From positions 576,681 through 640,680 of the forward strand of contig NZ_JAPZVR010000002.1 of assembly GCF_027622855.1 (NCBI RefSeq): a stretch of DNA of 64,000 nt, given 5' to 3'. How positions within the stretch are numbered: position 1 is the first letter of the stretch; each line of letters opens with the position of its first letter. Made by a program: the position numbers and the translations under genes. Below, one piece after another: positions 4,997 to 34,886 of the stretch. The notes beneath the pieces are model-generated. The model was given only the letters and a program-made list of their open reading frames with translations, ran no database searches and was not told where the DNA came from. This DNA is from Glycomyces algeriensis (GTDB lineage Bacteria; Actinomycetota; Actinomycetes; Mycobacteriales; Micromonosporaceae).

Positions 4997-5113
4997 GGGA
5001 CAGAGACTATCGCGGCCGTCCCAGTGACTAGGATCGGAGCATTTGGTCCCCACACCCGCGGCCACTCGATCGTCATGCCGATGGGCCGTGGACCACGACG
5101 CTAAGGATGCACC

Positions 5114-6571
5114 GTGACAGAACTGACCTCCGCCTCCGGCGACATCGCGGCCGCTGACGCCGAAGTGCTCGTCGTCGGCGTCTTCTCCGGCGAGGACGCC
5201 CCCGAGCTCCCCGGGAGCCTCGCGGGACTCGACGCCGCCTTCGGCGGACGCCTCGCCGAGCAGCTCGCGGTCCTCGGCAACACCGGCTCGGCGTCCTCGC
5301 TCACCCGCCTCCCCGCCCCCGACGGCCTGAACGCGAAGCTCGTCTACGCGGTCGGCCTCGGCGACGCGGACGACCTCGACGACGAGACGCTGCGCCGCGC
5401 CGCCGGCACCGCCGTGCGCGCCGCGTTCGGCAAGGCCAGCGCCGCCATCGCGTTCGAAGGCGACCCCGCGGCAACCGCGACCGGCGCCGTCCTCGCCGCC
5501 CACCGGTTCGCGGGCTACAAGACCGACGGCGGCGCCGACACCGCGCCCGCCGAGATCCGCGTCTACGGCGCGAGCGAAGCCGCCGTGGCGAAGGCCGCCG
5601 TGCTCGGCGAGAGCGTCGCCCTCGTCAAGGACTGGTCCGACACCCCCGCGAACCTCCTGCGCCCGCCCGGTTTCGCCGTCGAGATCGAGCAGGCCGCCCG
5701 CGCCGCCGGCATCGAAGTCGAGATCCTGGACGCCGCGGCGCTCACCGCCGGCGGGTACGGCGGCGTGCTCGCCGTCGGCGGCGGCTCCTCGGCCGAACCG
5801 CGACTGGTCCGCCTCTCCTACCGGCCCGAGGGCGCGACCAAGCACGTCGCGTTCGTCGGCAAGGGCATCACCTTCGACTCCGGCGGCATCAACATCAAGC
5901 CCGGCGCGGGCATGTGGGACATGAAGGGCGACATGGCCGGAGCCGCGGCCGTCGTCGGCGCGACCCTCGCCGCCGCGAGACTGGGCCTGGCCGTCGACGT
6001 CACGTGCACGGTGGCGCTGGCCGAGAACATGCTCTCGGGCTCCTCGTTCCGCCCGTCCGATGTGATCACCATCCGCGGCGGCACCACGGTGGAGGTCCTC
6101 AACACCGACGCCGAGGGGCGCCTGGTGCTGGCCGACGCGATCTCGCGTGCCCTCGAGGACGAGCCCGACGCGCTGTACGACGTGGCCACCCTCACCGGCG
6201 GCCAGCTCATCGCCCTGGGCCGGCGCACCATGGGCCTCATGGGCACCGACACCGAGACCGAGCGGCTGCGCCGCCTCGGCGAGGTCACCGGCGAGCACGG
6301 CTGGCCGATGCCGTTCCCCGAGGACATCGTGAAGCTCATGGAGTCGTCGATCGCCGACGTCTCGCAGTGCGCGACCGGCCTCAAGCGCGACGGCCACATG
6401 GTTCAGGGCGGCGTCTTCCTGTCGAAGTTCGTGCCCGAGGACCTGCCGTGGGCGCACCTCGACATCGCCGGCCCGGCCGACTCCGACTCGACCTACGGGT
6501 ACATCGCGAAGGGCGCGACCGGGTTCCCGGTGCGGACCCTCGTGGCCGTGCTCGAGGAGTTCGCCGCGTAG
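5114..6571 (+). CDS. pepA: Leucyl aminopeptidase (M17 family)
   Basis: Cytosolic two-metal aminopeptidase releasing N-terminal residues from peptides. 485 aa with GTG start. The M17 catalytic half holds [10 protein letters not shown] (about residues 248-257), [12 protein letters not shown] and the family signature [10 protein letters not shown] (about 330-339), which supply the metal ligands and catalytic Lys/Arg. Followed at once by a strong terminator. Its position before lpdA and sucB is a common actinobacterial arrangement, although here a small minus-strand gene lies in between. Confidence 0.96.
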
Positions 6572-6584
6572 CCGCACCGATGTG

Positions 6585-6624
6585 ACACGAGAAGGGCCCG
6601 GCGCGAGCCGGGCCCTTCTCGTGT
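6585..6624. terminator. Bidirectional terminator, 18-bp perfect stem
   Basis: Arms 6585-6602 and 6607-6624 are perfectly complementary around a GCGA loop. It lies between convergent pepA and the small gene at 6703-7035 and can serve both strands. There is no long U-tract, as is common in actinobacteria. Confidence 0.85.
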
Positions 6625-6702
6625 CCGCGAGCCCTCACCACCAAGTGGCGGGACAGTGCGGTGAATATTGCGGAATCGTTGCGCAAACGGCGGGGGAAAT
6701 CG

Positions 6703-7035
6703 CTACTGGCGACGCTGCTGCTCGAGCTTGCGACGCGCGTCGAAATCCCGCTTACGCTGCGGATATCCGGTCTTGGCGACCTCGTACACCGGGGTGTTGT
6801 ACTTGCGGCCCAGCGCGAACGCGCCCGCCGGGCCGTCGACGCGGCGGCGTGTCCACTCACCGTCGTGCGCGATGAGCATGACGGTCGTCTCAGTGACGGT
6901 GGTCTTCGGCTCGAGGTAGGCCTCGACGCCCGTCCGCGTCTTGATGAAATCGATCAGATGTCGCTGGTCAGTGTTGTCAGAGGCTCGGTCCAGCGTCCCC
7001 TTGCCCTGTTTCTTCTTCCGTCCGAACAAGCCCAC
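6703..7035 (-). CDS. Conserved hypothetical protein, about 110 aa
   Basis: Small soluble protein of unknown function. It starts VGLFGRKKKQGKG and has a basic tail (KRDFDARRKLEQQRR). The middle has alternating hydrophobic residues (TTVMLIAHDGEW) suggesting a small beta fold. The GTG at 7035 is chosen because GGGAGGAG lies 5-8 bases upstream; the open frame extends further only as non-coding-like sequence. Genes of this type near pepA and lpdA in actinobacteria make me think it is real, but no domain was recognised. Confidence 0.7.
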   Translation of the reverse strand: MGLFGRKKKQGKGTLDRASDNTDQRHLIDFIKTRTGVEAYLEPKTTVTETTVMLIAHDGEWTRRRVDGPAGAFALGRKYNTPVYEVAKTGYPQRKRDFDARRKLEQQRRQ

Positions 7036-7252
7036 GGCCGCTCCTCCCGCACCACTTGAGGCGTGATTTCCAAGCGTACACACGCGCCAGGACACCTGTG
7101 TCCAGCCGCACATGAACGGGACTTTCCGAATGCTCGCAGCAAGCGGTTGAATGGTGTTGCACACTCCAACCACCGGGTCTGGCCGATCACGAGTCGCCGC
7201 CGGTGGAAGGATGGGCTCCGAACCTAATGCATCGTTAAGTGTGGGGAGAGCA

Positions 7253-8641
7253 ATGAGCGACCCGAACGCAGGATACGACGTCGTCATCCTGGGCGGCGGC
7301 AGCGGCGGCTACGCCTCGGCCTTCCGGGCGGCCGAGCTGGGGCTGTCGGTGGCCCTGATCGAGAAGGACAAGGTCGGCGGCACCTGTCTGCACCGCGGCT
7401 GCATCCCCACCAAGGCGCTGCTCCACGCCGGCGAGGTCGCCGACACGACCCGCGAGTCCGACCAGTTCGGCATCCTCGCCGAGTTCAAGGGCGTCGACAT
7501 GGGCGCCGTCAAGAAGTACAAGGACGACGTCGTCGCCCGCCTGTACAAGGGCCTCCAGGGCCTGGTCAAGGCCCACAAGGTCGAGTTCATCAACGGCACC
7601 GGCAAGCTCGTCGGGCCGAACACGGTCGAGATCGACAACGGCCAGAAGGTGACCGGCCGCAACGTCATCCTCGCGACCGGCTCGTACTCCAAGACCCTCC
7701 CGGGCCTGGAGATCGACGGCGAGAAGATCATCGCCTCCGAGCACGCGCTCGAACTCACCGAGCTGCCGAACAAGGCCATCGTCATCGGCGGCGGCGTCAT
7801 CGGCGTCGAGTTCGCCTCCGCCTGGAAGTCCCTGGGCGTCGAGGTCGAGATCATCGAAGGCCTCCCCCGCCTCATCGCGGCCGAGGACGCCGACTCGTCG
7901 AAGCAGCTCGAGCGGGCGTTCCGCAAGCGCGGCATCAAGTTCCACACCGGCAAGTTCTTCGAGAAGGTCGAGAAGACCGGCTCGGGCGTGCAGGTCACGA
8001 TCCAGGGTGGCACGGTCGTCGAAGGCGACCTCGTGCTCGTCGCGGTCGGCCGCGGCCCCTCCACCGCGAACTGCGGCTACGAGGAGCAGGGCGTCAACAT
8101 GGACCGGGGCTTCGTCCTGGTCGACGAGAACCTCCTGACCAACCTGCCGAACGTGTACGCCGTAGGCGACATCGTCCCCGGCATCCAGCTCGCGCACCGC
8201 GGCTTCGCGCAGGGCATCTTCGTGGCCGAGCACATCGCGGGCCTCGACCCGACCCCGATCGACGAGGCCGGCATCCCGCGCGTGACCTTCACCGAGCCCG
8301 AGGTGGCCTCGGTGGGGCTCAACGAGGACAAGGCGAAGGAGAAGTACGGCGCCGACAAGATCAAGTCGGTGTCCTTCAACCTCGCCGGGAACGGCAAGTC
8401 GATCATCCTCAAGACCCAAGGCTTCATCAAGCTCGTGTCGGTCGAGGACGGCCCGATCGTGGGTGTCCACATGGTCGGTTCGCGCATCTCCGAGCAGGTC
8501 GGCGAAGCGGAGCTGATCTTCAACTGGGAGGCTTACGCCGACGACGTGGCGAAGCTGATCCACATGCACCCCACTCAGAACGAGGCGATCGGCGAAGCGG
8601 CCATGCTGCTGGCCGGCAAGCCGCTGCACGTCCACGACTAA
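7253..8641 (+). CDS. lpdA: Dihydrolipoyl dehydrogenase (E3)
   Basis: FAD enzyme that reoxidises dihydrolipoyl groups of 2-oxoacid dehydrogenase complexes with NAD+. 462 aa. The N-terminal FAD fold is VVILGGGSGGYASA, the redox disulfide is in GGTCLHRGCIP (residues about 42-52), the NAD fold is VIGGGVIGVEFAS, and HMHPTQNE near residue 440 gives the catalytic His-Glu pair. The ATG at 7253 is preceded by GGGGAGAG; an upstream in-frame extension adds no domain sequence. Only 27 bases before sucB, so the two are probably co-transcribed. Confidence 0.96.
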   Translation: MSDPNAGYDVVILGGGSGGYASAFRAAELGLSVALIEKDKVGGTCLHRGCIPTKALLHAGEVADTTRESDQFGILAEFKGVDMGAVKKYKDDVVARLYKGLQGLVKAHKVEFINGTGKLVGPNTVEIDNGQKVTGRNVILATGSYSKTLPGLEIDGEKIIASEHALELTELPNKAIVIGGGVIGVEFASAWKSLGVEVEIIEGLPRLIAAEDADSSKQLERAFRKRGIKFHTGKFFEKVEKTGSGVQVTIQGGTVVEGDLVLVAVGRGPSTANCGYEEQGVNMDRGFVLVDENLLTNLPNVYAVGDIVPGIQLAHRGFAQGIFVAEHIAGLDPTPIDEAGIPRVTFTEPEVASVGLNEDKAKEKYGADKIKSVSFNLAGNGKSIILKTQGFIKLVSVEDGPIVGVHMVGSRISEQVGEAELIFNWEAYADDVAKLIHMHPTQNEAIGEAAMLLAGKPLHVHD

Positions 8642-25213: not shown

Positions 25214-25624
25214 TCAGCAGGCGCTCTTGGTCATGAGGCTTTCCGCCTCGTCGTTGAAGCCGACCTCTTGGAAGTTCTGGATCGGCTGGTAGGCGTGGAT
25301 GCAGAACGCGTCGCCCTGGGCGCCGTCGTCGGCGTAGACCATGATCGCGTAGCCGGTGCGGTTGAGCGCGGAGCTGATCTCGTTGTCGCCGTTCCAGCCC
25401 CCGATCTCGAAGATCTGGCCGGTGCCGCTGGGCTGCCAGTTCACCCACTTGTCACCGCCGTAGCCGGCGTCCTCCCACATGCAGACGTGGTCGGCGTCGC
25501 AGGTCCCCGCCTCGGGGACCGGTTCGGCGGCGGCGGTTCCCACCGTGAAGACCGTGCCGGCGAGGATCGCGGCGCCGGCTGCCGCGAATCCGGTGCTGAC
25601 CCGGCGGTTCCATGGTGCGGACAT
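25214..25624 (-). CDS. Secreted peptidase inhibitor family I36 protein
   Basis: 136 aa secreted protein. Signal peptide: basic MSAPWNRR, hydrophobic core FAAAGAAILAGTVF, cleavage near TAAAEP. The mature part holds the I36 pattern CDADHVCMWEDAGYGG followed by aromatic-rich beta strands, FCIHAY, and a terminal Cys, so two disulfides are likely. The family is typified by the streptomycete metalloprotease inhibitor SMPI. ATG at 25624 has AAGGAG at good spacing; an upstream in-frame ATG would put charged residues before the signal. Inhibitory activity is not certain, as many I36-domain proteins are uncharacterised. Confidence 0.85.
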   Translation of the reverse strand: MSAPWNRRVSTGFAAAGAAILAGTVFTVGTAAAEPVPEAGTCDADHVCMWEDAGYGGDKWVNWQPSGTGQIFEIGGWNGDNEISSALNRTGYAIMVYADDGAQGDAFCIHAYQPIQNFQEVGFNDEAESLMTKSAC

Positions 25625-25792
25625 CGTTGTCTCCTTGTTCGGGCGATGTTGCGGCCGAAGACGATCCGTCACTTCTGGTGGCGATTCGGCGACGCAACGC
25701 GAACAAGGTTACGGTTTCGCCCGGGGACTCGGGCCGATATCGGGGAAGTTCCCCTGCGCGCGGTTGTCGGGGGCGTGGGTTACCTTTTGGCC

Positions 25793-26539
25793 GTGGCAGA
25801 GGTGCGGTACCGAAAACTCGATGCATTGACCGACGACGAGGTCTACGCGGCGTACGAGCCGCCCGCCGACGATTGGCTGCGGGTCAATTTCGTCTCCAGC
25901 GCCGACGGCGCGGCGACCCTGGAAGGGCTCTCCGGTCCACTTTCGGGTGAAGAGGACAAGCGCGTGTTCAAGGTCCTGCGGGCGCGCTGCGACGTGCTCC
26001 TCGCCGGATCGGGCACCGTCGCCGCCGAAGGGTACGGGCCGCTGGTCCTCTCCCCCGACCGGATGGCCTGGCGCCGGGCGCACGGCCTGCCGGAGGTGCC
26101 GGTCATGGCCGTCGCCTCCCGGACCCTGGCCGACCTCGACCCGGCCGCGGGGATCTTCACCGAAGCGCCGCGCCGCGCGATCGTCATCGTCCCCACCGAC
26201 CTCCCCGAGGCGCAGGTCGCGCCGTTCCGGGAGGTCGCCGACGTGATCGCCACCGGCACCGGCGCGGTCGACTACGCCGCCGCGGTCGACGCGCTGCGCG
26301 AACGAGGCCTGCGCCAGATCCTGTGCGAGGGCGGGCCCCGCGTCTTCGGCGACCTCATCGCCGCCGACCTCGCCGACGAACTCGACCTGACGCTCTCGCC
26401 GCTGCTGGCCGGGGCCGGTTCCATCCGCATCGCCGAAGGCACCGCCAGCGACGCGGCCCGGCCCCTGGAGCTGCGACACGTCCTCGAAGCCGGGGGGAAC
26501 CTCATCCTGCGGTATCTGCGAGACTCGACCGATGAGTGA
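25793..26539 (+). CDS. RibD C-terminal domain reductase (pyrimidine/dihydrofolate reductase-like)
   Basis: 248 aa NADPH-dependent reductase-fold protein. WLRVNFVSSADGAATLEG and SEEDKRVFKVLRARCDVLLAGSGT match the RibD-C/DHFR-like start; LRQILCEGGPRVFGDLIAADLADELDLTLSPLLAG is the typical C-terminal strand-helix segment. There is no deaminase domain and no other rib genes nearby, so a role in riboflavin synthesis is not implied. Starts GTG (25793, or GTG 25802). Its TGA lies in ATGAGTGA shared with the herA-like start, so it is transcribed with the DNA-repair block. Confidence 0.82.
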   Translation: MAEVRYRKLDALTDDEVYAAYEPPADDWLRVNFVSSADGAATLEGLSGPLSGEEDKRVFKVLRARCDVLLAGSGTVAAEGYGPLVLSPDRMAWRRAHGLPEVPVMAVASRTLADLDPAAGIFTEAPRRAIVIVPTDLPEAQVAPFREVADVIATGTGAVDYAAAVDALRERGLRQILCEGGPRVFGDLIAADLADELDLTLSPLLAGAGSIRIAEGTASDAARPLELRHVLEAGGNLILRYLRDSTDE

Positions 26540-28259
26540 ATCGGTGGGCCGCGTGCTCGGCACAGAGGACGCGACGCCCCTGTCGTTCTGGGTCGGCGTC
26601 GGACCGGAGGCGTACGCCCAGCTCGACGACGTGCTCACCACCGAACGCCAGGTGCCCGGGGTCGGCACGGTCCGCATCTCCGGCGTCGTCACCTCCGTGC
26701 GCTCGCGCCACGAAGGCGCCCAGTTCGACTCGGACGTCTTCGACATCGCCGGGGGCCTGCTCCCCGCGCAGGTGCAGGAGGCCGCCGAGGTCACCGTGAC
26801 CCGCGTCGAACCCGAGGTGTTCGTGCCGCCGCGCCCCGGCGCCGAGGTGCAGCGCGCCACCGGCGAGGACCGCGACCGGGCCCTGTACTTCGACGGCATG
26901 GCCCGCCAAGTGCCCCTGGGGTTCTCGCGCGACGGCCAGCCGGTGTTCCTCAACCCCGACTTCCTCGACGGCACGCGGGGCGCGCACGTCTCCATCTCCG
27001 GCATCTCCGGCGTCGCCACCAAGACCTCGTTCGCGACCTGGATGCTCTACTCGCTCCTGCACTCCGGCGCGCTCGGCGCCGAGGCCGCGAACACCAAGGC
27101 GCTCATCTTCAACGTCAAGGGCGAGGACCTGCTGCTCCTCGACCACGACAACACGAAGATCGACGAGAGCGTGCGCGACTCCTACCGCCGCCTCGGCATG
27201 GAGCCCGGCGCGTTCAAGTCCGTGGAAGTGCTCGCGCCCCCGCGCGAAGGCGACTCCAACGGCGTCCCGGACGTGGCGTGCCGGTCCACCGGCGTGGACG
27301 CGTTCTACTGGACCCTCGCCGAGTTCTGCCAGCTCAGCCTCCTGCCGTTCGTGTTCGCCGACGGCGACGACGACCGCCAGCAGTACACGATGGTCGTCCA
27401 CCAGGTCGCCGCGCGGCTGCGCAAAGAGGCCCGCCCCAAGGACAACGGCGCGATCAGCGTCGACGGGCAGCTGCTCACCAGCTACCGCGACCTCGTCGAC
27501 CTCGTCTGCGAGCGCCTCTCCGACGACGAGACCCGCACCGAGTGGGCCGGGTCCGCGATCGGCCTGGGCACCGTGAACGCGTTCATCCGCCGCCTCATCG
27601 CCTCCGGGCGCGACATCGGGCGGCTCATCCGAGGCGACCTGCCGCCCAAGGGCGCCGTGCTCACCTCGGACGCCCAGGTCACCGTCGTGGACCTGCACAA
27701 CCTGCCCGACCGGGCGCAGCGCTTCGTCGTCGGCGTCGTGCTCCGCACCGAGTTCGAGCGCAAGGAGAAGGCCGGCACCGCCCGCCCGCTCCAGTTCGTC
27801 GTCCTCGACGAGCTCAACAAGTACGCGCCGCGCGAGGGCACCAGCCCCATCAAGGACATCCTGCTCGACATCGCCGAACGCGGGCGCTCCCTCGGGGTCA
27901 TCCTCATCGGCGCCCAGCAGACCGCGTCCGAAGTGGAGCGCCGGATCGCCTCCAACTCCGCGATCCGCGTCGTCGGCCGGCTCGACGCCGCCGAGGCCAC
28001 CCGCCCCGAGTACGGGTTCCTCACGCAGGCTCAGCGCATGCGGGTGCTCATGGCCAAGCCCGGCACCATGTTCGTGGCGCAGCCCGAACTCCCGGTCCCG
28101 CTCGTGGTGAACTTCCCGTTCCCCGCCTGGGCCACCCGCCCCTCCGAGGCCGGGTCCGCCCCGGCCGCCACCGCGCGGTCCGGCCGTGCGCTCTCGCCCA
28201 CCGCGAAGGTCGACCCGTTCGACCTCGCCGGGGACGACGAAGACGACATCCCGTTCTAG
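26532..28259 (+). CDS. herA: HerA-like ATP-dependent DNA translocase
   Basis: 575 aa P-loop ATPase. An N-terminal HAS-barrel-like beta region (1-100) precedes the RecA-type core: HVSISGISGVATKTSFATWM is the HerA-type Walker A (about residues 153-172), FVVLDELNKYAP is Walker B (about 422-433), and GVILIGAQQTASEV is the following sensor strand. The FtsK/HerA superfamily forms hexamers that pump DNA. In archaea HerA works with the nuclease NurA and with Mre11-Rad50; here sbcD and sbcC follow after 46 bases and a NurA-like gene lies further on. The overlap with the RibD-C gene (8 bases) indicates one transcript. Confidence 0.82.
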   Translation: MSESVGRVLGTEDATPLSFWVGVGPEAYAQLDDVLTTERQVPGVGTVRISGVVTSVRSRHEGAQFDSDVFDIAGGLLPAQVQEAAEVTVTRVEPEVFVPPRPGAEVQRATGEDRDRALYFDGMARQVPLGFSRDGQPVFLNPDFLDGTRGAHVSISGISGVATKTSFATWMLYSLLHSGALGAEAANTKALIFNVKGEDLLLLDHDNTKIDESVRDSYRRLGMEPGAFKSVEVLAPPREGDSNGVPDVACRSTGVDAFYWTLAEFCQLSLLPFVFADGDDDRQQYTMVVHQVAARLRKEARPKDNGAISVDGQLLTSYRDLVDLVCERLSDDETRTEWAGSAIGLGTVNAFIRRLIASGRDIGRLIRGDLPPKGAVLTSDAQVTVVDLHNLPDRAQRFVVGVVLRTEFERKEKAGTARPLQFVVLDELNKYAPREGTSPIKDILLDIAERGRSLGVILIGAQQTASEVERRIASNSAIRVVGRLDAAEATRPEYGFLTQAQRMRVLMAKPGTMFVAQPELPVPLVVNFPFPAWATRPSEAGSAPAATARSGRALSPTAKVDPFDLAGDDEDDIPF

Positions 28260-28305
28260 ATTCGGGCCCACAGCACCGACTTTCAGAGGTACAGAGGAGC
28301 AGGCC

Positions 28306-29460
28306 TTGCGGATTCTCCATACGTCCGACTGGCACGTCGGCGTCACCATGAAGGGCCGCTCGCGCCTCGACGAGCAGCGCGCCGTCTTCAAGCAGATGGT
28401 CGACGTCGCGCGCGAAGAACGCGTCGACCTGGTGATCGTCGCCGGGGACCTCTTCGACACCGCCTCGCCCTCGGCCGAGTCGCAGCGGCTCCTCTTCTCG
28501 GCCCTATCCGCACTGCGCGGCACCGGCGCCGAGGTCGTCGTCATCGCCGGGAACCACGACAACGGCAAGGCCCTCGAAGCCCTCCGGCACTGGGCCCACG
28601 CCGCCGGCATCCACCTGCGCGGCTCGCTCGGCAAGGCCGCCGACCACCTCATCACCGGCGAGACCGAGAGCGGCGAGCCCTGGCGCTGCGCCGCCCTCCC
28701 GTTCATCGCCCAGCGGCACGCCGTGCGCGCCGCCGAGCTGTTCGAGCTCGGCGCGGCCGGCGCCGAGGCGAACTACTCCGACCACCTGCGCCGCCTCGTC
28801 TCCGCGCTCACGCACGACTTCACCGCCGACACCGTGAACCTCTTCACCGGGCACCTCACCGTCGTCGGCGGCAAGGTGGGCGGCGGCGAACGCGAGGTCC
28901 ACACCGTGGCCGACTACGCCGTCCCCGCCGCGATCTTCCCGCCCACCACCTCCTATGTGGCCCTGGGGCATCTGCACAAGGCCCAGGCGATCACCGGGCC
29001 CTGCCCGATCCGCTACTCCGGCGGGCCGCTCGCGGTCGACTTCGGCGAGGAGGACCACACGCCGAGCGTCGCCATCGTCGACGTCGCGCCGGGGGTCCCC
29101 GCCCGCGCGCGCACAGTGCCGCTGACGGCCGCCGTGCCGCTGCAGACCGTGCGCGGCACCCTCGAGAAGCTCGCGAAGGCCGAAGTGGACGAGCGGGCCT
29201 GGCTGCGGGTCTTCGTCACCGAGCCCGCCCGGGCCGGACTCCGCGGCGAGGTCGCCGACCTCTTCCCGCGCGCCGTCCAGATCCACATCGACCCGGTCAT
29301 GCGCGCCGACGAGGCCAAACCGCGCGAACGCCGCTCCGGCCGCAGCCCGGGCGACCTCTTCGCCGCCTACCTCACCGAGCACCAGCACGACGACCCCGCC
29401 GTCACGAAGCTCTTCAGCCAGCTCTACGAAGACACCCAGACCGTCACCGAGGAGGCCTGA
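28306..29460 (+). CDS. sbcD: Exonuclease SbcCD subunit D (Mre11 homologue)
   Basis: 384 aa metallophosphoesterase nuclease. All Mre11 motifs are visible: HTSDWHVG (residues 5-12), GDLFD, AGNHDNG, FTGHLT and LGHLHKA, giving the two-manganese site. It cuts hairpins and DNA ends together with SbcC. TTG at 28306 is taken as start because AGAGGAG precedes it and residues before it are not Mre11-like. The stop overlaps the sbcC start by one base (TGATG). Confidence 0.93.
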   Translation: MRILHTSDWHVGVTMKGRSRLDEQRAVFKQMVDVAREERVDLVIVAGDLFDTASPSAESQRLLFSALSALRGTGAEVVVIAGNHDNGKALEALRHWAHAAGIHLRGSLGKAADHLITGETESGEPWRCAALPFIAQRHAVRAAELFELGAAGAEANYSDHLRRLVSALTHDFTADTVNLFTGHLTVVGGKVGGGEREVHTVADYAVPAAIFPPTTSYVALGHLHKAQAITGPCPIRYSGGPLAVDFGEEDHTPSVAIVDVAPGVPARARTVPLTAAVPLQTVRGTLEKLAKAEVDERAWLRVFVTEPARAGLRGEVADLFPRAVQIHIDPVMRADEAKPRERRSGRSPGDLFAAYLTEHQHDDPAVTKLFSQLYEDTQTVTEEA

Positions 29461-31892
29461 TGCGGCCCATCCGACTGGACCTCCAGGGTTTCGGCTCGTA
29501 CACCGGGTCCGAGACCTTCGACTTCACCGACGCGGAGTTCTTCGCGCTCACCGGGCCCACCGGCGCAGGAAAGTCCACCGTGCTCGACGCGATCTGCTTC
29601 GCGCTGTACGGCCGCACGCCGCGCTGGCCGAAGTCGGCCACGCAGAACTCCCTTGCCCCGTCCTCAGTGGAGGGTCGGGTGCGGCTGGTGTTCGGCGCGG
29701 CCGGGCAGCACTACGTGGCCACGCGCATCCTGCGGCGCGACCGCAACGGCAAGGTCAAGACCACCACGGCCGCCATGGAGCAGCTGCCCGACGGCGTGAA
29801 CCCCGCCGAGGACACCGAGCTCGTCGAAGGCCTCGGCAAGGCCCTCGGCGGGAGTCCGAACGAGGTCAACGCCGCCGCCGAGCGGATCATCGGCCTCCCG
29901 TTCGAGCAGTTCACCAAGTGCGTGCTCCTGCCCCAAGGCGAGTTCGCGGAGTTCCTGCGCGCCTCCTCCGCCGACCGGCGGAACATCCTGGAGAACCTGC
30001 TCGGTCACAGCGTCTACCGCGGCATCCAGCAGCGCGCCCGCACCCGCTTCGTCGACGCCGACGCGAAGCGGCAGGCGTACGAGACGCAGCTGGCCGGGAT
30101 CCCGCCGGTCACCGAGGAGCAGATCCGGCACGCCGCCGAGCGCGTCGAGCGCCTGGAGAAGCTCTCGGAGCCGGTGCGGGACAAGTCGAGCGCGCTCGAC
30201 GGGCTCGCCGCCGCCGTCGAGGCCGCGCGGCGCCGGCTCGCCGAGGCCGAGGCGAACCTGGCCTCCCTCACATACATCAAGGAGCCGTCCGGGGTCGCCG
30301 ACATCGCCGCGCAGGTCGCCGCCGCGACGGCCGCGGTGGTCGAGAAGGCGGCCGAGGTCGAGGCCACCGAGGCCGAGGACGAGCGGCTGCGGTCCGAACT
30401 GGACGGGCTCGACCTGGCGAAACTCGAGCGCGACCTCAAGGCCTGGGCCGAACTCGCCGAGACCGAGTCGAAGCTCAAGACCGGCCTCGAACTCACCGAG
30501 GAGCTGCGCGACCAGTTCGCCGAGGCGAAGGAGCTCGAAGAGGCCGCCTCGGAAGAGGTCGAGATCCAGCACGCGGCCCTCCACAAGGTCCGCATGGCCG
30601 AACTGGCCGGGACCCTCAGGGCGGGCTTGGAGATCGGCGACGAATGCCCCGTCTGCGACCGTCCCGTGGACCAGGTCCCCGAGCACGACCTGTCCGAGTC
30701 GATGCACCAGGCCGAAGAGGCCTCCCGCACGGCCACAGTGGAGTTCCGGGATGCGCAGGCCGCCGTCGTGGCGCTCCAGACGAAGCTCGAGAACTACGAG
30801 GAGCGGCTCACCGAGCTGCAGCTGGCCGAGCGGCGGCTGAAGAAGAAGCTCGAGAACGTCCCCGAACCGGCGGTGCTGCAGCAGCAGCGGTCCAACTCCG
30901 AGGAGGCCCGGCAGCAGCTCGCGGGCACCGGCGCCGCCCTCAAGGCCGCGCGGCGGGCGCTGCGCGAGGCCGAGAAGCGCAAGGGCGTCGCCGACGAGCG
31001 CCAGCAGCGGGCGTGGAAGGAGTTCCAGCACGCCCGCGACCAGGTGGCCGTGCTCGGCCCGCCCGCCGGTGGGGACGACCTGGCCGCGAGCTGGGCGCAG
31101 CTGGTCGCCTGGGCCGACGCCTCGCTCGAGCGCGCGGGCACTGAACGCGAGGCCGCCCGCACCGAGCTGGCGGGCCTCGACGGCCGCGCCCAGACGCTGC
31201 GCGGCGAGCTCCGGTTCGCCTTGGGCGAGTTCAACGTCGAGGTGCCGCGCAACGGCACCGGCGGCGACTACGTGGCCCGGCACGCGACCGCCGTCGAAGC
31301 GGCGCGCGCGGAGTCCACCTCGCTCACCGAGGCGCGGAAGCGGCGCATCGACCTCGACGCCGAGATGCGGCGCTTCGCGGGCGAAGCGCTGGTGGCCAAG
31401 GAGCTCGCCAGGCACCTGGACGCGCGCAAGTTCATGGAGTGGCTGCTCAGCGAGGCCCTCGACGAGCTCGTGGCGGGGGCCACGGTCATGCTCCACCAGA
31501 TCACCGGCGGCCAGTACGACCTGGTCTACCGCGAGCAGGACTTCTGGGTGGTCGACCACCACGACGCCGACATGCCGCGCCCGGCGCGGAGCCTCTCGGG
31601 CGGCGAGACCTTCGCGGCCTCGCTCTCGCTGGCGCTCGCCTTGAGCGACCAGCTGGCGAGCCTGTCGCGGCACGGCGCGAGCCTGGAGTCGATCATTCTC
31701 GACGAGGGCTTCGGGACCCTGGACCCGGAAACACTCGACGCGGTCGCGACAACGCTGGAGGCGCTGACGCTCTCCGCCGGCCGCACGGTCGGACTCGTGA
31801 CGCATGTGACCGAACTCGCAGAACGGGTGCCCGTGCGGTTCCGGGTCACCAAGGACGCCAAGGGGTCCCATGTGGAGAAGACCTGGACTTAG
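29460..31892 (+). CDS. sbcC: Exonuclease SbcCD subunit C (Rad50/SMC-like ATPase)
   Basis: 810 aa. Walker A GPTGAGKST (about residues 32-40), long coiled coils rich in Ala/Glu/Arg, the zinc hook ECPVCDRP (CxxC near 396-399), a second coiled coil, the ABC signature SLSGGETFAAS (about 711) and Walker B IILDEGFGTLDPE (about 745). Shorter than the 1000-plus residues of E. coli SbcC because of shorter coils, as is common in actinobacteria. With SbcD it forms the MR-type end-processing complex. No stop-to-start gap with sbcD, so equal expression is likely. Confidence 0.93.
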   Translation: MRPIRLDLQGFGSYTGSETFDFTDAEFFALTGPTGAGKSTVLDAICFALYGRTPRWPKSATQNSLAPSSVEGRVRLVFGAAGQHYVATRILRRDRNGKVKTTTAAMEQLPDGVNPAEDTELVEGLGKALGGSPNEVNAAAERIIGLPFEQFTKCVLLPQGEFAEFLRASSADRRNILENLLGHSVYRGIQQRARTRFVDADAKRQAYETQLAGIPPVTEEQIRHAAERVERLEKLSEPVRDKSSALDGLAAAVEAARRRLAEAEANLASLTYIKEPSGVADIAAQVAAATAAVVEKAAEVEATEAEDERLRSELDGLDLAKLERDLKAWAELAETESKLKTGLELTEELRDQFAEAKELEEAASEEVEIQHAALHKVRMAELAGTLRAGLEIGDECPVCDRPVDQVPEHDLSESMHQAEEASRTATVEFRDAQAAVVALQTKLENYEERLTELQLAERRLKKKLENVPEPAVLQQQRSNSEEARQQLAGTGAALKAARRALREAEKRKGVADERQQRAWKEFQHARDQVAVLGPPAGGDDLAASWAQLVAWADASLERAGTEREAARTELAGLDGRAQTLRGELRFALGEFNVEVPRNGTGGDYVARHATAVEAARAESTSLTEARKRRIDLDAEMRRFAGEALVAKELARHLDARKFMEWLLSEALDELVAGATVMLHQITGGQYDLVYREQDFWVVDHHDADMPRPARSLSGGETFAASLSLALALSDQLASLSRHGASLESIILDEGFGTLDPETLDAVATTLEALTLSAGRTVGLVTHVTELAERVPVRFRVTKDAKGSHVEKTWT

Positions 31893-32115
31893 CCCAGGTC
31901 ACGGGCTCTTGACGAATTCTTGACGCCCCTTCTGCGGTTCCGCGTGCCCGCGCTCTGGCAATCCCCCGAGGCCGGGAGTAATTTGAGTTCGTCGACCTCG
32001 TTCCGCCGCAACGACATGCCTGCCGTTCGCGCGTTGTCGGCGTGCACGCCGCCCGATACGGGCGCAATGTCCGGCTATGCCACAGGACACATGAAGGTCA
32101 TTCACTCGAAGTTAA

Positions 32116-32131
32116 ACTTGAATGTTCAAGT
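32116..32131. promoter_or_regulatory. Inverted repeat before the carbonic anhydrase gene, possible operator
   Basis: ACTTGAA-TG-TTCAAGT, a perfect 7+7 inverted repeat in an AT-rich patch that ends 12 bases before the ATG at 32144. Too short for a terminator; the symmetry and position fit a repressor site covering the ribosome binding or promoter region. No ribosome binding site is evident, so the transcript may be leaderless or nearly so. Confidence 0.4.
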
Positions 32132-32143
32132 ACTTATGCAGAT

Positions 32144-32920
32144 ATGACCACATTGCACCTCCGCGGCAGCCGCCGCAAGCTGATCACCGGAGCGGGCGCC
32201 GTGGGCGCCGGCGCCATCGCCGTGTTCGCCCTCGACGCCTGCAGCGCCGACGGCAGCGGCATGGGCGGCGAGGACGCCGCCGCCCAGACCGCGGACGTCC
32301 TCAGCCTCAAGGACTTCGACTCGGCCGCGGACATCTGGGACGCCATGCTCGACGGCAACCAGCGCTGGGCCGACGGCGGCGCCGTCCACCCCGACACCGA
32401 CGTCGCGCTCCGCGAATCCCTCGCCGAGGGCCAGGAGCCCCGCGCCGCCGTCTTCACCTGCGTCGACTCCCGCGTCGCCCCCGAGTTCGTCTTCGACACC
32501 GGCATCGGCGACCTCATGGTCACCCGCACCGCCGGGAACGTCTACGACCCGCTCGTCTCCGAGTCCGTCTCCTACGGCCCCGCCGCCCTCGAGGCCCCGC
32601 TCCTGGTCGTCCTCGGGCACCAGAAGTGCGGCGCCGTCACCGCCGCCCACGAGGCCCTCCTCGCGGCCGAGGAGGGCACGGAGCTCGAGGAGCACGAGTA
32701 CGCGCTTCCGGAGACCGTGGAGGCCCTCAGGGCCGCCTACGAGGCGTCCAAGGGCGAGTCCGGCGACCCCGTCGACGCGATGATCAAGGCGAACGTCCTC
32801 CTGACGGTGCAGGCGCTCAAGGAGCACCCGAACCTGGCCGAACTCGTCGCGGACGGCGAGCTCACCGTGGTCGGCGGCGTCTACTCCCTCGAGACCGGAC
32901 TGGTCACCGAGGTTGCATAG
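32144..32920 (+). CDS. Beta-class carbonic anhydrase, exported lipoprotein
   Basis: 258 aa. Zinc ligands are visible: CVDSR (Cys106, Asp108, Arg110) and GHQKCGAV (His159, Cys162), the complete beta-CA set for CO2/bicarbonate interconversion. The N-terminus is a twin-arginine-type signal (RGSRRKLITGAGAVGAGAIA) ending in a lipobox-like LDAC with Cys33, so the enzyme is probably folded in the cytoplasm, exported by Tat and lipid-anchored outside. ATG at 32144 begins directly before the signal. It lies between sbcC and the NurA-like gene with no functional link evident. Confidence 0.88.
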   Translation: MTTLHLRGSRRKLITGAGAVGAGAIAVFALDACSADGSGMGGEDAAAQTADVLSLKDFDSAADIWDAMLDGNQRWADGGAVHPDTDVALRESLAEGQEPRAAVFTCVDSRVAPEFVFDTGIGDLMVTRTAGNVYDPLVSESVSYGPAALEAPLLVVLGHQKCGAVTAAHEALLAAEEGTELEEHEYALPETVEALRAAYEASKGESGDPVDAMIKANVLLTVQALKEHPNLAELVADGELTVVGGVYSLETGLVTEVA

Positions 32921-32949
32921 GACGGTTGCATAGGACGGCCGCCTAGGAC
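32911..32949. repeat. 13-bp direct repeat, three copies, across the carbonic anhydrase stop codon
   Basis: GGTTGCATAGGAC occurs twice in tandem (32911 and 32924) and a third diverged copy follows (32937, GGCCGCCTAGGAC). The TAG stop of the carbonic anhydrase is inside copy 1, and each copy repeats the TAG. Confidence 0.85.
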
Positions 32950-33028
32950 CGGCTCCCAGCGCGGGGCCCGTGGCGTCGACGGCGAGCAGTACGCTGGGCC
33001 GCAATCGTTCCCGAAAGCAGGTTGCGCC

Positions 33029-33952
33029 TTGCAGATCACCGTCGACGCCTGGGACCCGTCCTTCGCCGACAACCCCGAGTCGCCCTCGCGCGCGAACCAG
33101 GCGATCGTCAACGCGGGGGTCGAACTCGAACCCGCCGACTGGCGCCCGGTCGACGCGCCCGCCTCAGGGCCGCGCCGCATCGTCGTGGTCGACGGCGTCC
33201 GCCGCGTCGATGCCCGCGTCGAGCTGCTGGAGGACGGCGAGCGCTGGCCGGGCGTGTGCGTCTCCTGGGCGGCCGGAGCGGTCGCCTGCGACCTCGACGG
33301 CCAGGTCTCCACCGTCGCCGAGGCGGCCGTGGAGCGCGGCCTGTTCGCGGCGGTGAGCCCGGGCGTGGACTTCGGGTACTACCCGTACTGCGAGACCGCG
33401 TCGGCCGATCCGGGCGACCTCGTCAACGAGGCGCAGCAGAAGATGGCCGAGCTCGAGGCGAAGATGGCGTCGATGGTCGCCATGGACGCGCAGCTGTCGG
33501 TGCTCGACGGGCCGCTGCGCGGGCGCACCCGCCTCCCGAACTCGGTGGGCTACATCAAGAGCCACCACCGCTCCTACCTGCAGGGCGAGCTGAACGCGGT
33601 CGTGGAGCGGCTGCGGCCGGGCCAGCGCACCCCGGTCTTCCACCTCATGTCGGGCTGGCCGCGGTACACCTGGTACCTGCGGCTGCCGGGCACCTCGTCC
33701 CGGGGCTGGGCGGGCGTCGCGCGGCTCGAGGCCGCCGACGACCTGAGCGAGGAGGCGGCCATCGCGCTCGCCGACGCCACCGCGGCGGCCCTGCCGCCCC
33801 TGGGCTCCGCCGCGCACAAGGACGCGCGGGCCCCGCAGAACCTCACCCCGATCGCGGGGCTCGAACGGCGCCTGAAGCGCATGCTGGGCGACCCGCGCCT
33901 GCTGCTGCGGTCGGTGCGGGCGGCGTCCAGGGAGACGGACGACCGGCCGTGA
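33029..33952 (+). CDS. NurA-like nuclease domain protein (probable HerA partner)
   Basis: 307 aa, TTG start. Not a textbook match, but the order of features fits NurA: an early Asp-Gly strand RIVVVDGVRRVDARVEL (Asp near residue 55, the position of the first catalytic Asp), a mid-protein LPNSVGYIKSHHRSYL (NurA-type IKxH segment, about 172-185), and a late WYLRLPG...GVARLEA strand pair like the Y-x-R-L / R-x-E end of NurA. NurA is a 5'-3' exo/endonuclease that works inside HerA hexamers. Location downstream of herA-sbcD-sbcC supports this. Family assignment is an inference and needs a profile search. Confidence 0.55.
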   Translation: MQITVDAWDPSFADNPESPSRANQAIVNAGVELEPADWRPVDAPASGPRRIVVVDGVRRVDARVELLEDGERWPGVCVSWAAGAVACDLDGQVSTVAEAAVERGLFAAVSPGVDFGYYPYCETASADPGDLVNEAQQKMAELEAKMASMVAMDAQLSVLDGPLRGRTRLPNSVGYIKSHHRSYLQGELNAVVERLRPGQRTPVFHLMSGWPRYTWYLRLPGTSSRGWAGVARLEAADDLSEEAAIALADATAAALPPLGSAAHKDARAPQNLTPIAGLERRLKRMLGDPRLLLRSVRAASRETDDRP

Positions 33953-34092
33953 GTCCGGCGGGACCCGTCTCGACCACACGGAGCAGTACGCGCTGACGGC
34001 GCTCAAGACGAGGCGCATTTGAAGGGCAGCCTGCTGTTCCTGTTCAACCGGTTGGAGGCGGCGCCGGCCGCGCCGTGATGCCGTGACGCATG

Positions 34093-34126
34093 GAGCAGCC
34101 CCGGCGCCGTCGCGCCGGGGCTGCTC
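34093..34126. terminator. Shared terminator between convergent genes
   Basis: A 15-bp perfect stem (34093-34107 with 34112-34126) around CGTC, between the NurA-like gene and the secreted transglycosylase-like gene. Confidence 0.8.
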
Positions 34127-34175
34127 TGCGGGTCAACGAACTCCGGGTCCGCTGGGATTCGAGTTTATGGGCGGA

Positions 34176-34886
34176 TCAGTACCAGCCGTTGGACTCGCTG
34201 TGCGACCAGGCGCTGCACGGGCTGCCGTAGCGGCCGTCGATGTAGTCGAGGCCCCAGGCGATCTGGGTGGCCGGGTTGGTCTCCCAGTCGTCGCCGTTGG
34301 CGGCCATCTTGTCGCCGGGGAGGGACTGCGGGATGCCGTAGGCGCCGGAACCGGAGTTGTAGGCGCTCTCGTCCCAGCCGGACTCCTTGTCCCACAGGTT
34401 GACGAGGCAGCCGACCTCGTTCATGTCCCAGCCGGCCTCGAGGGTCATGGTGCAGCCGATGGCCTGGTTGCCGGAGTACTCGGAGCAGTCGGCGGCGATG
34501 TCGACGCTGCCGCCGCCGTCGTCCGAGGACTCGGTGGTCGCCTCTTCGACGGGTTCGGGCTCGGGCTCCGGCTCGGGGACCTCGGCGGGCTCGGTCTTCT
34601 CGGGCGGCTCGACCGCGGCGGCCTCCTTGACGGGGAGGATGCTCTCCATCGGGGCGACCTGGTCCCACTGGTACTGGGCGTCGCCGGCGTCGGCGACGAT
34701 CTCGGCGGCGAGGAGCTCCTCGCCGGTCGGGTCGTCGGTGCCGATGATGGCGGCGCTCGCGCTGCTGGCGGAGCCGACGGCGAACAGGACTGCGGCAGCG
34801 GACACGAGGACGCGTTTGCGGGCGGGGTGCCGCTCGGGGTCTTCGGCTCGGTGCCGCGCACGGGAGGTCTGCATGCGGGTGAACAT
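34176..34886 (-). CDS. Secreted lytic-transglycosylase-like protein
   Basis: 236 aa. Basic N-terminus and signal core VLVSAAAVLFAVGSASSASAA, then an acidic Pro/Glu linker (PEPEPEPEPVEE), and a C-terminal SLT-like domain of about 90 residues: CLVNLWDKESGWDESAYN contains the catalytic-type Glu, followed by GAYGIPQSLPGDKMAA and IAWGLDYIDGRYGSPCSAW. This short C-terminal domain is widespread in actinobacterial exported muralytic proteins. Expected to act on peptidoglycan. Start 34886, or Met at 34874. Confidence 0.85.
   Translation of the reverse strand: MFTRMQTSRARHRAEDPERHPARKRVLVSAAAVLFAVGSASSASAAIIGTDDPTGEELLAAEIVADAGDAQYQWDQVAPMESILPVKEAAAVEPPEKTEPAEVPEPEPEPEPVEEATTESSDDGGGSVDIAADCSEYSGNQAIGCTMTLEAGWDMNEVGCLVNLWDKESGWDESAYNSGSGAYGIPQSLPGDKMAANGDDWETNPATQIAWGLDYIDGRYGSPCSAWSHSESNGWY

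Follow-up and report, generated by a model that had tools for sequence, protein, structure and literature searches.

A 64,000-nt stretch from the genome of the soil actinomycete Glycomyces algeriensis (GCF_027622855.1, contig NZ_JAPZVR010000002.1, positions 576,681-640,680), hereafter the window, whose own numbering is used for positions, carries a run of five consecutive plus-strand genes encoding HerA, SbcD, SbcC, a beta-carbonic anhydrase and NurA (Table 1). A sequence-only reading of the window had placed herA, sbcD, sbcC and nurA in one locus, and all four are indeed real, on the plus strand and at or near the places it gave. It had also put a NurA-like protein about 1.1 kb past sbcC, which is right as to position, but the gap, left without comment there, is occupied by the beta-carbonic anhydrase gene. 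Each of the four genes shows coding-like GC by codon position, and the sbcD stop and sbcC start share 1 nt. The start of sbcD is most likely the TTG at 28306, since the family models begin at residue 41-42 of its open reading frame (ORF), and the TTG start of nurA is supported by two close relatives (L032 and L033) having ATG at the same position.

Table 1. Genes of the HerA-SbcD-SbcC-NurA locus and its upstream neighbour (window positions).
Feature	Position	Strand	Evidence and remarks
herA, bacterial-type DNA translocase	26532-28259	+	phmmer match to 7f6d_B
sbcD, Mre11-like nuclease	28306-29460	+	TIGR00619 E 2.9e-56, over cut-off; ORF open from 28186
sbcC, Rad50-like ATPase with CxxC	29460-31892	+	AAA_23 and SbcC_Walker_B over cut-off
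beta-carbonic anhydrase	32144-32920	+	PF00484 E 3.3e-32; ORF open from 32042, likely start ATG 32144
nurA, RNase H-like nuclease, HerA partner	33029-33952	+	TTG start; sequence, model fold, catalytic residues
RibD C-terminal-domain gene	25802-26539	+	Pfam RibD_C E 3.2e-27; start unfixed, about 25800

Identity of the four proteins

NurA, of which the source genome (5.59 Mb) encodes a single copy, would be missed by Pfam and NCBIfam alone, as its score against Pfam NurA (PF09376) is sub-threshold (16.5 bits for a cut-off of 21) and an NCBIfam scan of the 33029-33952 protein returned no match. Among the 20 members of alignment A2, just 10 reach E 0.01 or better with the Pfam model (best 5.7e-07). 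However, a phmmer search with the single protein retrieves NurA of Deinococcus radiodurans (DrNurA; PDB 7f6d_H) at E 1.1e-19, a similarity that chance would not explain, and a 23-row profile matches 7f6d at E 1.4e-57 and 1zup_A from T. maritima at E 4.4e-17. The profile search proposed in the sequence-only reading finds NurA through 7f6d and 1zup, while the Pfam model itself stays below its cut-off. The AlphaFold model (predicted local distance difference test, pLDDT, 82.6; predicted template modelling score, pTM, 0.80; residues 8-23 below pLDDT 50) superposes on 7f6d_G with a Z-score of 23.0 (root-mean-square deviation, rmsd, 2.8 over 281) and on 1zup_A with Z 22.2. The archaeal NurA chains give Z 9.4-14.6, the best being 2ygk_A (Z 14.6, rmsd 4.5 over 226), the TdpAB chain 8wfd_G ranks fourth among the fold matches with Z 12.7, and endonuclease V, another RNase H-like nuclease, reaches Z about 10.

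The substitutions D53A, K201A and R309A are each reported to abolish DrNurA activity (PMC9960219, in its accessible text). These residues align with D55, K177 and R267 of the window NurA, which are invariant in all 126 aligned NurA rows (some genomes being present twice), as are E143, D160, G56 and R232; Y216 and E234 are found in 125 rows and R218 in 121. The motifs named in the sequence-only reading are all correct, namely Asp-Gly (D55-G56), IKxH (I176-K177-S178-H179), YxRL (Y216-L-R218-L) and RxE (R232-L-E234). A Trp at position 8 is present in 124/126 rows; it lies outside the printed DrNurA alignments and in the model stretch of pLDDT under 50, and the base-stacking residue of DrNurA is W8. 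On its sequence and predicted fold, the 33029-33952 protein is thus a bacterial-type (Deinococcus-type) NurA, and the proposal that the last gene is a real NurA is borne out by profile, model fold and catalytic residues together. It had been said that the assignment would fall with an unrelated fold or a loss of the catalytic acidic residues; the NurA fold and the residues are both kept. That the protein is unrelated to NurA, or inactive, could be argued from the low Pfam scores of the protein and its relatives, but with sequence, model fold and experimentally tested residues all in agreement this is highly improbable, and an unrelated fold is ruled out by the sequence matches and the model.

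HerA matches D. radiodurans HerA (DrHerA; 7f6d_B) at E 1.5e-138 over 3-543 by phmmer, while its score on Pfam DUF87 is poor (E 0.25). Its residues K164, T165, D199, D426, E427, R434 and R491 correspond to K175, T176, D220, D487, E488, R495 and R552 of DrHerA, so that the Walker A and B motifs, the ASCE acidic residue and two DNA-contact arginines are all present. Among 119 aligned rows, K164, D199, D426 and E427 are found in every one, T165 in 118 and each arginine in 117. SbcD has the phosphoesterase motifs DWH, GDLFD, GNHD and GHLH, and SbcC has GPTGAGKS, CPVC (the CxxC motif), LSGGE and DEGF, its whole-protein model TIGR00618 matching at E 1.6e-79, below the cut-off of that model.

Distribution, gene order and ancestry of the cassette

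The searches covered 249 genomes from the order and 149 from the phylum. Within the order, 51/249 genomes have a strong HerA match (E 8e-160 or better), and a strong NurA match (E 4.5e-44 or better) is found in the identical 51. These counts exclude 20 of the 71 genomes matching HerA (E above 1e-8) and two of the 53 matching NurA (G165 and G198, E above 1e-5). All 42 sampled genomes of the window's family have both proteins, the family being the genome-set grouping that holds Glycomyces and Micromonospora, which we take to be Micromonosporaceae in the GTDB sense. HerA, SbcD and NurA lie in that order on one contig and strand, within 5.8-8.5 kb, in 45 of the 51 genomes, the parts being on different contigs in the other 6. 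Co-occurrence of the four genes across actinobacteria, a check suggested with the sequence-only reading, is seen. At the level of the phylum, strong HerA (E below 1e-50) is present in 33/149 genomes, after 17 weaker ones among 50 matching genomes were set aside, and 32 of them have NurA; the exception is G070, where the contig ends within sbcD (L124).

A wider set of relatives comprised the 80 best of 491 confirmed stretches, in 78 loci, and gene order was read in every one of the 78. The order of the window, herA-sbcD-sbcC-nurA, is found within the order and in some other families, and nurA-herA-sbcD-sbcC in other families of the phylum. In a tally of 131 NurA loci, in which some genomes count twice, an apparent HerA-SbcC-SbcD-NurA order in 6 loci is an artefact of stop-to-stop ORF bounds, the positions showing the usual order. 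In FastTree trees of 37-38 cassettes, a single branch splits the two gene orders for each of HerA, NurA, SbcC and SbcD (support 98-100), and the tree distances of the four proteins correlate with r 0.79-0.94. The cassettes of G224 (family f52) and G262 (f62) group with those of f60 and f56: for HerA, SbcC and SbcD they fall in a starred set, and for NurA they are joined by nearest distance alone; this grouping across families suggests, as far as sequences can tell, that the cassette is transferred as a unit. With estimated starts, the end of sbcC runs 1 or 4 nt into nurA in 25/58 non-Glycomyces loci, and insertions of about 1-14 kb can be found between herA and sbcD in some cassettes.

Several divergent or unusually placed relatives were seen as well. 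One genome holds, beside its main cluster, a second and divergent nurA-herA-sbcD-sbcC set (L123, G146 C15; 27-28% identity). A very divergent HerA with SbcD nearby occurs in L121 and L122 (phylum family f16); L121 also has a weak NurA match, and the position of the two loci in the SbcD tree is on a very long branch. Two metagenome bins labelled Gemmatimonadota (L168 and L183) have the gene order of the window with a HerA 60% identical, by transfer or mis-binning.

Regarding the beta-carbonic anhydrase, its gene lies between sbcC and nurA in 12/20 Glycomyces loci, where sbcC and nurA are separated by anything from 2 to 2950 nt, and in none of the non-Glycomyces loci read for gene order. Being missing from those loci and from 8/20 Glycomyces loci, it is ruled out as a conserved cassette partner and is probably outside the ancestral cassette. 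The same gap is filled by other, unrelated genes, named by eye, in L133, L142, L143 and L144, those of L133 and L142 being transporter-like and regulator-like. By eye, the N-terminus of the carbonic anhydrase looks twin-arginine-like and lipobox-like. Upstream, the stop of the RibD_C gene and the start of herA overlap by 8 nt; a RibD_C gene precedes herA also in Micromonospora (L171) and Actinoplanes (L164), and none was found in L154.

The SbcD of the cassette is clearly separate, by sequence, from the ordinary actinobacterial SbcD. It is matched at E 1.7e-96 or better in 51/51 cassette genomes, the best of the other 198 order genomes reaching E 1.3e-49; 137 of these have a more distant SbcD and 61 have none at E 1e-10. 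A quickly built tree of 70 rows, in which long branches meet, places the 19 stand-alone SbcD on one side of a branch (support 99), gives the 18 SbcD of the nurA-first order a branch of their own (support 94), and joins the 29 SbcD from cassettes arranged as in the window to a single unlinked copy, from L209 (support 90). The second SbcD matches of G262, G283, G319, G392 and G161 are outside this comparison. Two genomes, G224 and G279, carry a stand-alone SbcD together with the cassette SbcD.

The expectation that the organism would have AdnAB or RecBCD holds in its first part. A separate locus of the source genome encodes AdnA (L111:1951-5073, E 1.2e-154 to 6ppj_A) and AdnB (5066-8176, E 4.2e-210 to 6ppr_B), while no RecB matched over the cut-off in that genome and no RecC at E 1e-20. 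The entries 6ppj and 6ppr are mycobacterial AdnAB. AdnAB of mycobacteria shares with the cassette the expected function in DNA-end resection, but its proteins are unrelated to those of the cassette and are encoded elsewhere in the genome. AdnB is found at E 1e-60 in 244/249 order genomes, including all 51 with the cassette, and therefore the cassette adds to AdnAB within the order; across the phylum, 23/33 strong-HerA genomes have AdnB and 10 lack it at that threshold. RecC is present in 3/51 cassette genomes (G380, G224 and G279) versus 81/198 others (Fisher p 3e-7). RecC is rarer with the cassette, a suggestive contrast that is confounded by family and is not independent evidence, because 42 of the 51 cassette genomes belong to one family.

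A putative end-processing pathway and its alternatives

The locus is fairly probably a complete bacterial HerA-NurA-SbcD-SbcC cassette that would process DNA ends in parallel to AdnAB, a reading drawn from sequence and from analogy with characterized systems. A HerA hexamer would pull double-stranded DNA from a broken end, as in Deinococcus, and a NurA dimer would receive the DNA from HerA, cut the strands and leave a 3' tail. The linked SbcCD, by analogy with Mre11-Rad50 biology, may first make ends that are blocked, hairpin or protein-capped accessible by opening or cleaning them, and this pathway would run alongside the AdnAB of the same cells. Cooperation of the four proteins in resection is suggested by gene linkage and by their published relatives. 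A further-reaching proposal can be entertained at tentative confidence: a distinct SbcCD may have co-evolved with HerA-NurA into a dedicated four-protein machine, forming a core second pathway beside AdnAB throughout the family, both inherited and transferred in one piece, plasmids included, and perhaps standing where related lineages have RecBCD.

Bacterial HerA-NurA has already been published from Deinococcus and Thermus, and a review mentions homologues in Actinobacteria. Compared with D. radiodurans HerA-NurA (7F6D; PMC9960219), both proteins of the window are related and share catalytic and motor residues, but the window's pair is accompanied by sbcD and sbcC, AdnAB is encoded in the same cell, and the contact residues are partly kept; Deinococcus-Thermus are described, in the accessible text of that study, as being without RecBCD/AddAB. 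The mre11-rad50-herA-nurA operon best known from heat-loving archaea (Sulfolobus, Pyrococcus and Thermococcus) brings the same four functions together, and the four genes are reported to be essential in S. islandicus (PMC4351679, accessible text). The NurA model is nevertheless nearer to bacterial chains (Z 22-23) than to archaeal ones. The description of the locus as a bacterial version of the archaeal machinery holds for the four genes, the NurA fold and the linkage, but the proteins are of Deinococcus type and, in the window, the cluster is broken by a carbonic anhydrase gene. In the accessible text of PMC5448004, Thermus has nurA-hepA, and sbcD and sbcC lie downstream of hepA in Oceanithermus, where the order is nurA-herA-sbcD-sbcC. 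The hepA-sbcD-sbcC of Oceanithermus profundus (Thermales) is a bacterial HerA-SbcD-SbcC linkage resembling the second actinobacterial gene order; it belongs to another phylum, while the window's order has nurA last with the carbonic anhydrase intervening. PMC12977600, in its accessible part, assigns the bacterial operon to Deinococcus-Thermus. A literature search covering best-ranked matches, with subscription papers mostly outside, returned no account of the cluster in Micromonosporaceae or of coexistence with AdnAB. The separate SbcD and the coexistence with AdnAB are thus the apparently new parts, not seen described, whereas HerA-NurA in bacteria was already known.

Several observations weigh against a joint end-processing machine. 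The residues of the HerA-NurA contact are partly kept on both sides in alignments to DrHerA and DrNurA. The acidic patch residues D78 and D81 of DrHerA are kept as D68 and D71, but E80 is replaced by F70, and D71 is conserved in just 27/119 rows. On the NurA side, K299 and K303 of DrNurA motif 3 are lost (P257 and A261) while H305 and K306 are kept, R336 and R339 are kept while R337 is lost, the motif-2 residues are lost, and those of motif 1 fall in an alignment gap. The DrHerA-NurA study itself, in its accessible text, describes these residues as aligning poorly outside Deinococcus (PMC9960219). The tree correlations take no account of shared ancestry, and the SbcD tree does not show the cassette clades of the two gene orders to be sisters. 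In G307, a member of the family, another SbcCD belonging to the cassette clade (L209:9516-13977) has no HerA or NurA match in 20 kb. Published phenotypes from other organisms conflict, as far as their accessible text goes: Thermus lacking nurA and herA is reported to be more UV-resistant (PMC7776575) and Thermus lacking hepA to be more UV-sensitive (PMC5448004). For archaeal HerA-NurA, a study of 2026 casts doubt on resection and proposes antiviral degradation instead (PMC12977600). Confidence in a joint machine is lowered slightly by this lack of a sister relation in the SbcD tree, by the unlinked SbcCD and by the good scores of SbcC on two defence models. Finally, no exact SOS-type or RecA-NDp-type site, with herA starts estimated, lies in the 350 bp upstream of herA at any of 70 loci, and regulation of the cassette by DNA damage is rejected on this ground. 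Allowing as many as two mismatches, an SOS-type search of the window yielded 12 matches where 3.6 were expected, and the 2 kb upstream of herA contained none of them; a promoter and terminator scan of 25600-34200 gave nothing above chance.

SbcCD and HerA-NurA might be mere neighbours, HerA-NurA acting alone and SbcCD doing its ordinary work. D. radiodurans HerA-NurA alone is reported to resect 5' ends in vitro (PMC9960219, accessible text), and both the interruptions between herA and sbcD and the L209 SbcCD would fit such independence. This is rather unlikely, given that the linked SbcD is well separated from the stand-alone SbcD, that two genomes hold both kinds, and that sbcC and nurA overlap, by estimated starts, in 25/58 non-Glycomyces loci. 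As to L209 itself, its second SbcD is 44% identical and is preceded by unassigned ORFs, one with a P-loop-like start by eye; this SbcCD might be a defence locus.

The cassette could also serve mainly in anti-phage or anti-plasmid defence, degrading foreign double-stranded DNA as has been proposed for other HerA-nuclease pairs and for TdpAB (8wfd, 8wet). TdpAB is a HerA-like translocase with a NurA-like nuclease, 8wfd_G being its NurA-like subunit TdpB, and it is not known to have an SbcCD partner. The fold match of NurA to this chain is consistent with such a role, as are the scores on PADLOC models of SbcC (LmuB E 3.1e-28, mad3 E 4e-27) and HerA (mad8 E 1.8e-10, HerA E 2.3e-06), and the antiviral function proposed for archaeal HerA-NurA points the same way. 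However, NurA is nearer to DrNurA than to the TdpAB chain, the SbcC matches may reflect the SMC/Rad50 family alone, and no PADLOC match was obtained for NurA or, at E 0.001, for ten proteins of the window encoded beside the cluster or at most about 15 kb from it. The flanking genes in three relatives encode RibD_C, sigma factor, spermine-synthase-like and pRiA4b ORF-3-like proteins. A plasmid collection search found relatives in three places, and copies on two of these plasmids can be counted in favour of defence, but no NurA relative was found in 50,697 phage records at E 1e-5 and none was confirmed in viral contigs. A mainly defensive function is unlikely for the cassette as a whole, its presence in every sampled member of the family favouring a housekeeping role; the mobile copies would be the likeliest place for defence. 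On the linear plasmid of Streptomyces sp. BB1-1-1 (L229, 418193-437158), herA-sbcD-sbcC-nurA lies near an ImmA/IrrE peptidase, a helicase-associated-domain protein and a restriction endonuclease, neighbours with the look of defence genes. A conjugative cyanobacterial plasmid of Sphaerospermopsis (L231) has nurA-herA-sbcD-sbcC with a HerA 47% identical to that of the window, and the third relative is on an 11.9 Mb Nonomuraea record labelled plasmid, the size of which suggests a chromosome.

With end processing by a HerA-NurA-SbcD-SbcC cassette as the preferred reading, the family offers a useful setting for a disputed question. Resection by HerA-NurA inside cells is contested, and a conserved four-gene set is found here in mesophilic actinomycetes together with AdnAB. 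Single and combined deletions may be possible in these organisms, including that of the SbcCD that seems to belong to HerA-NurA. AdnAB should therefore not be assumed to be the sole route of end resection in this family.

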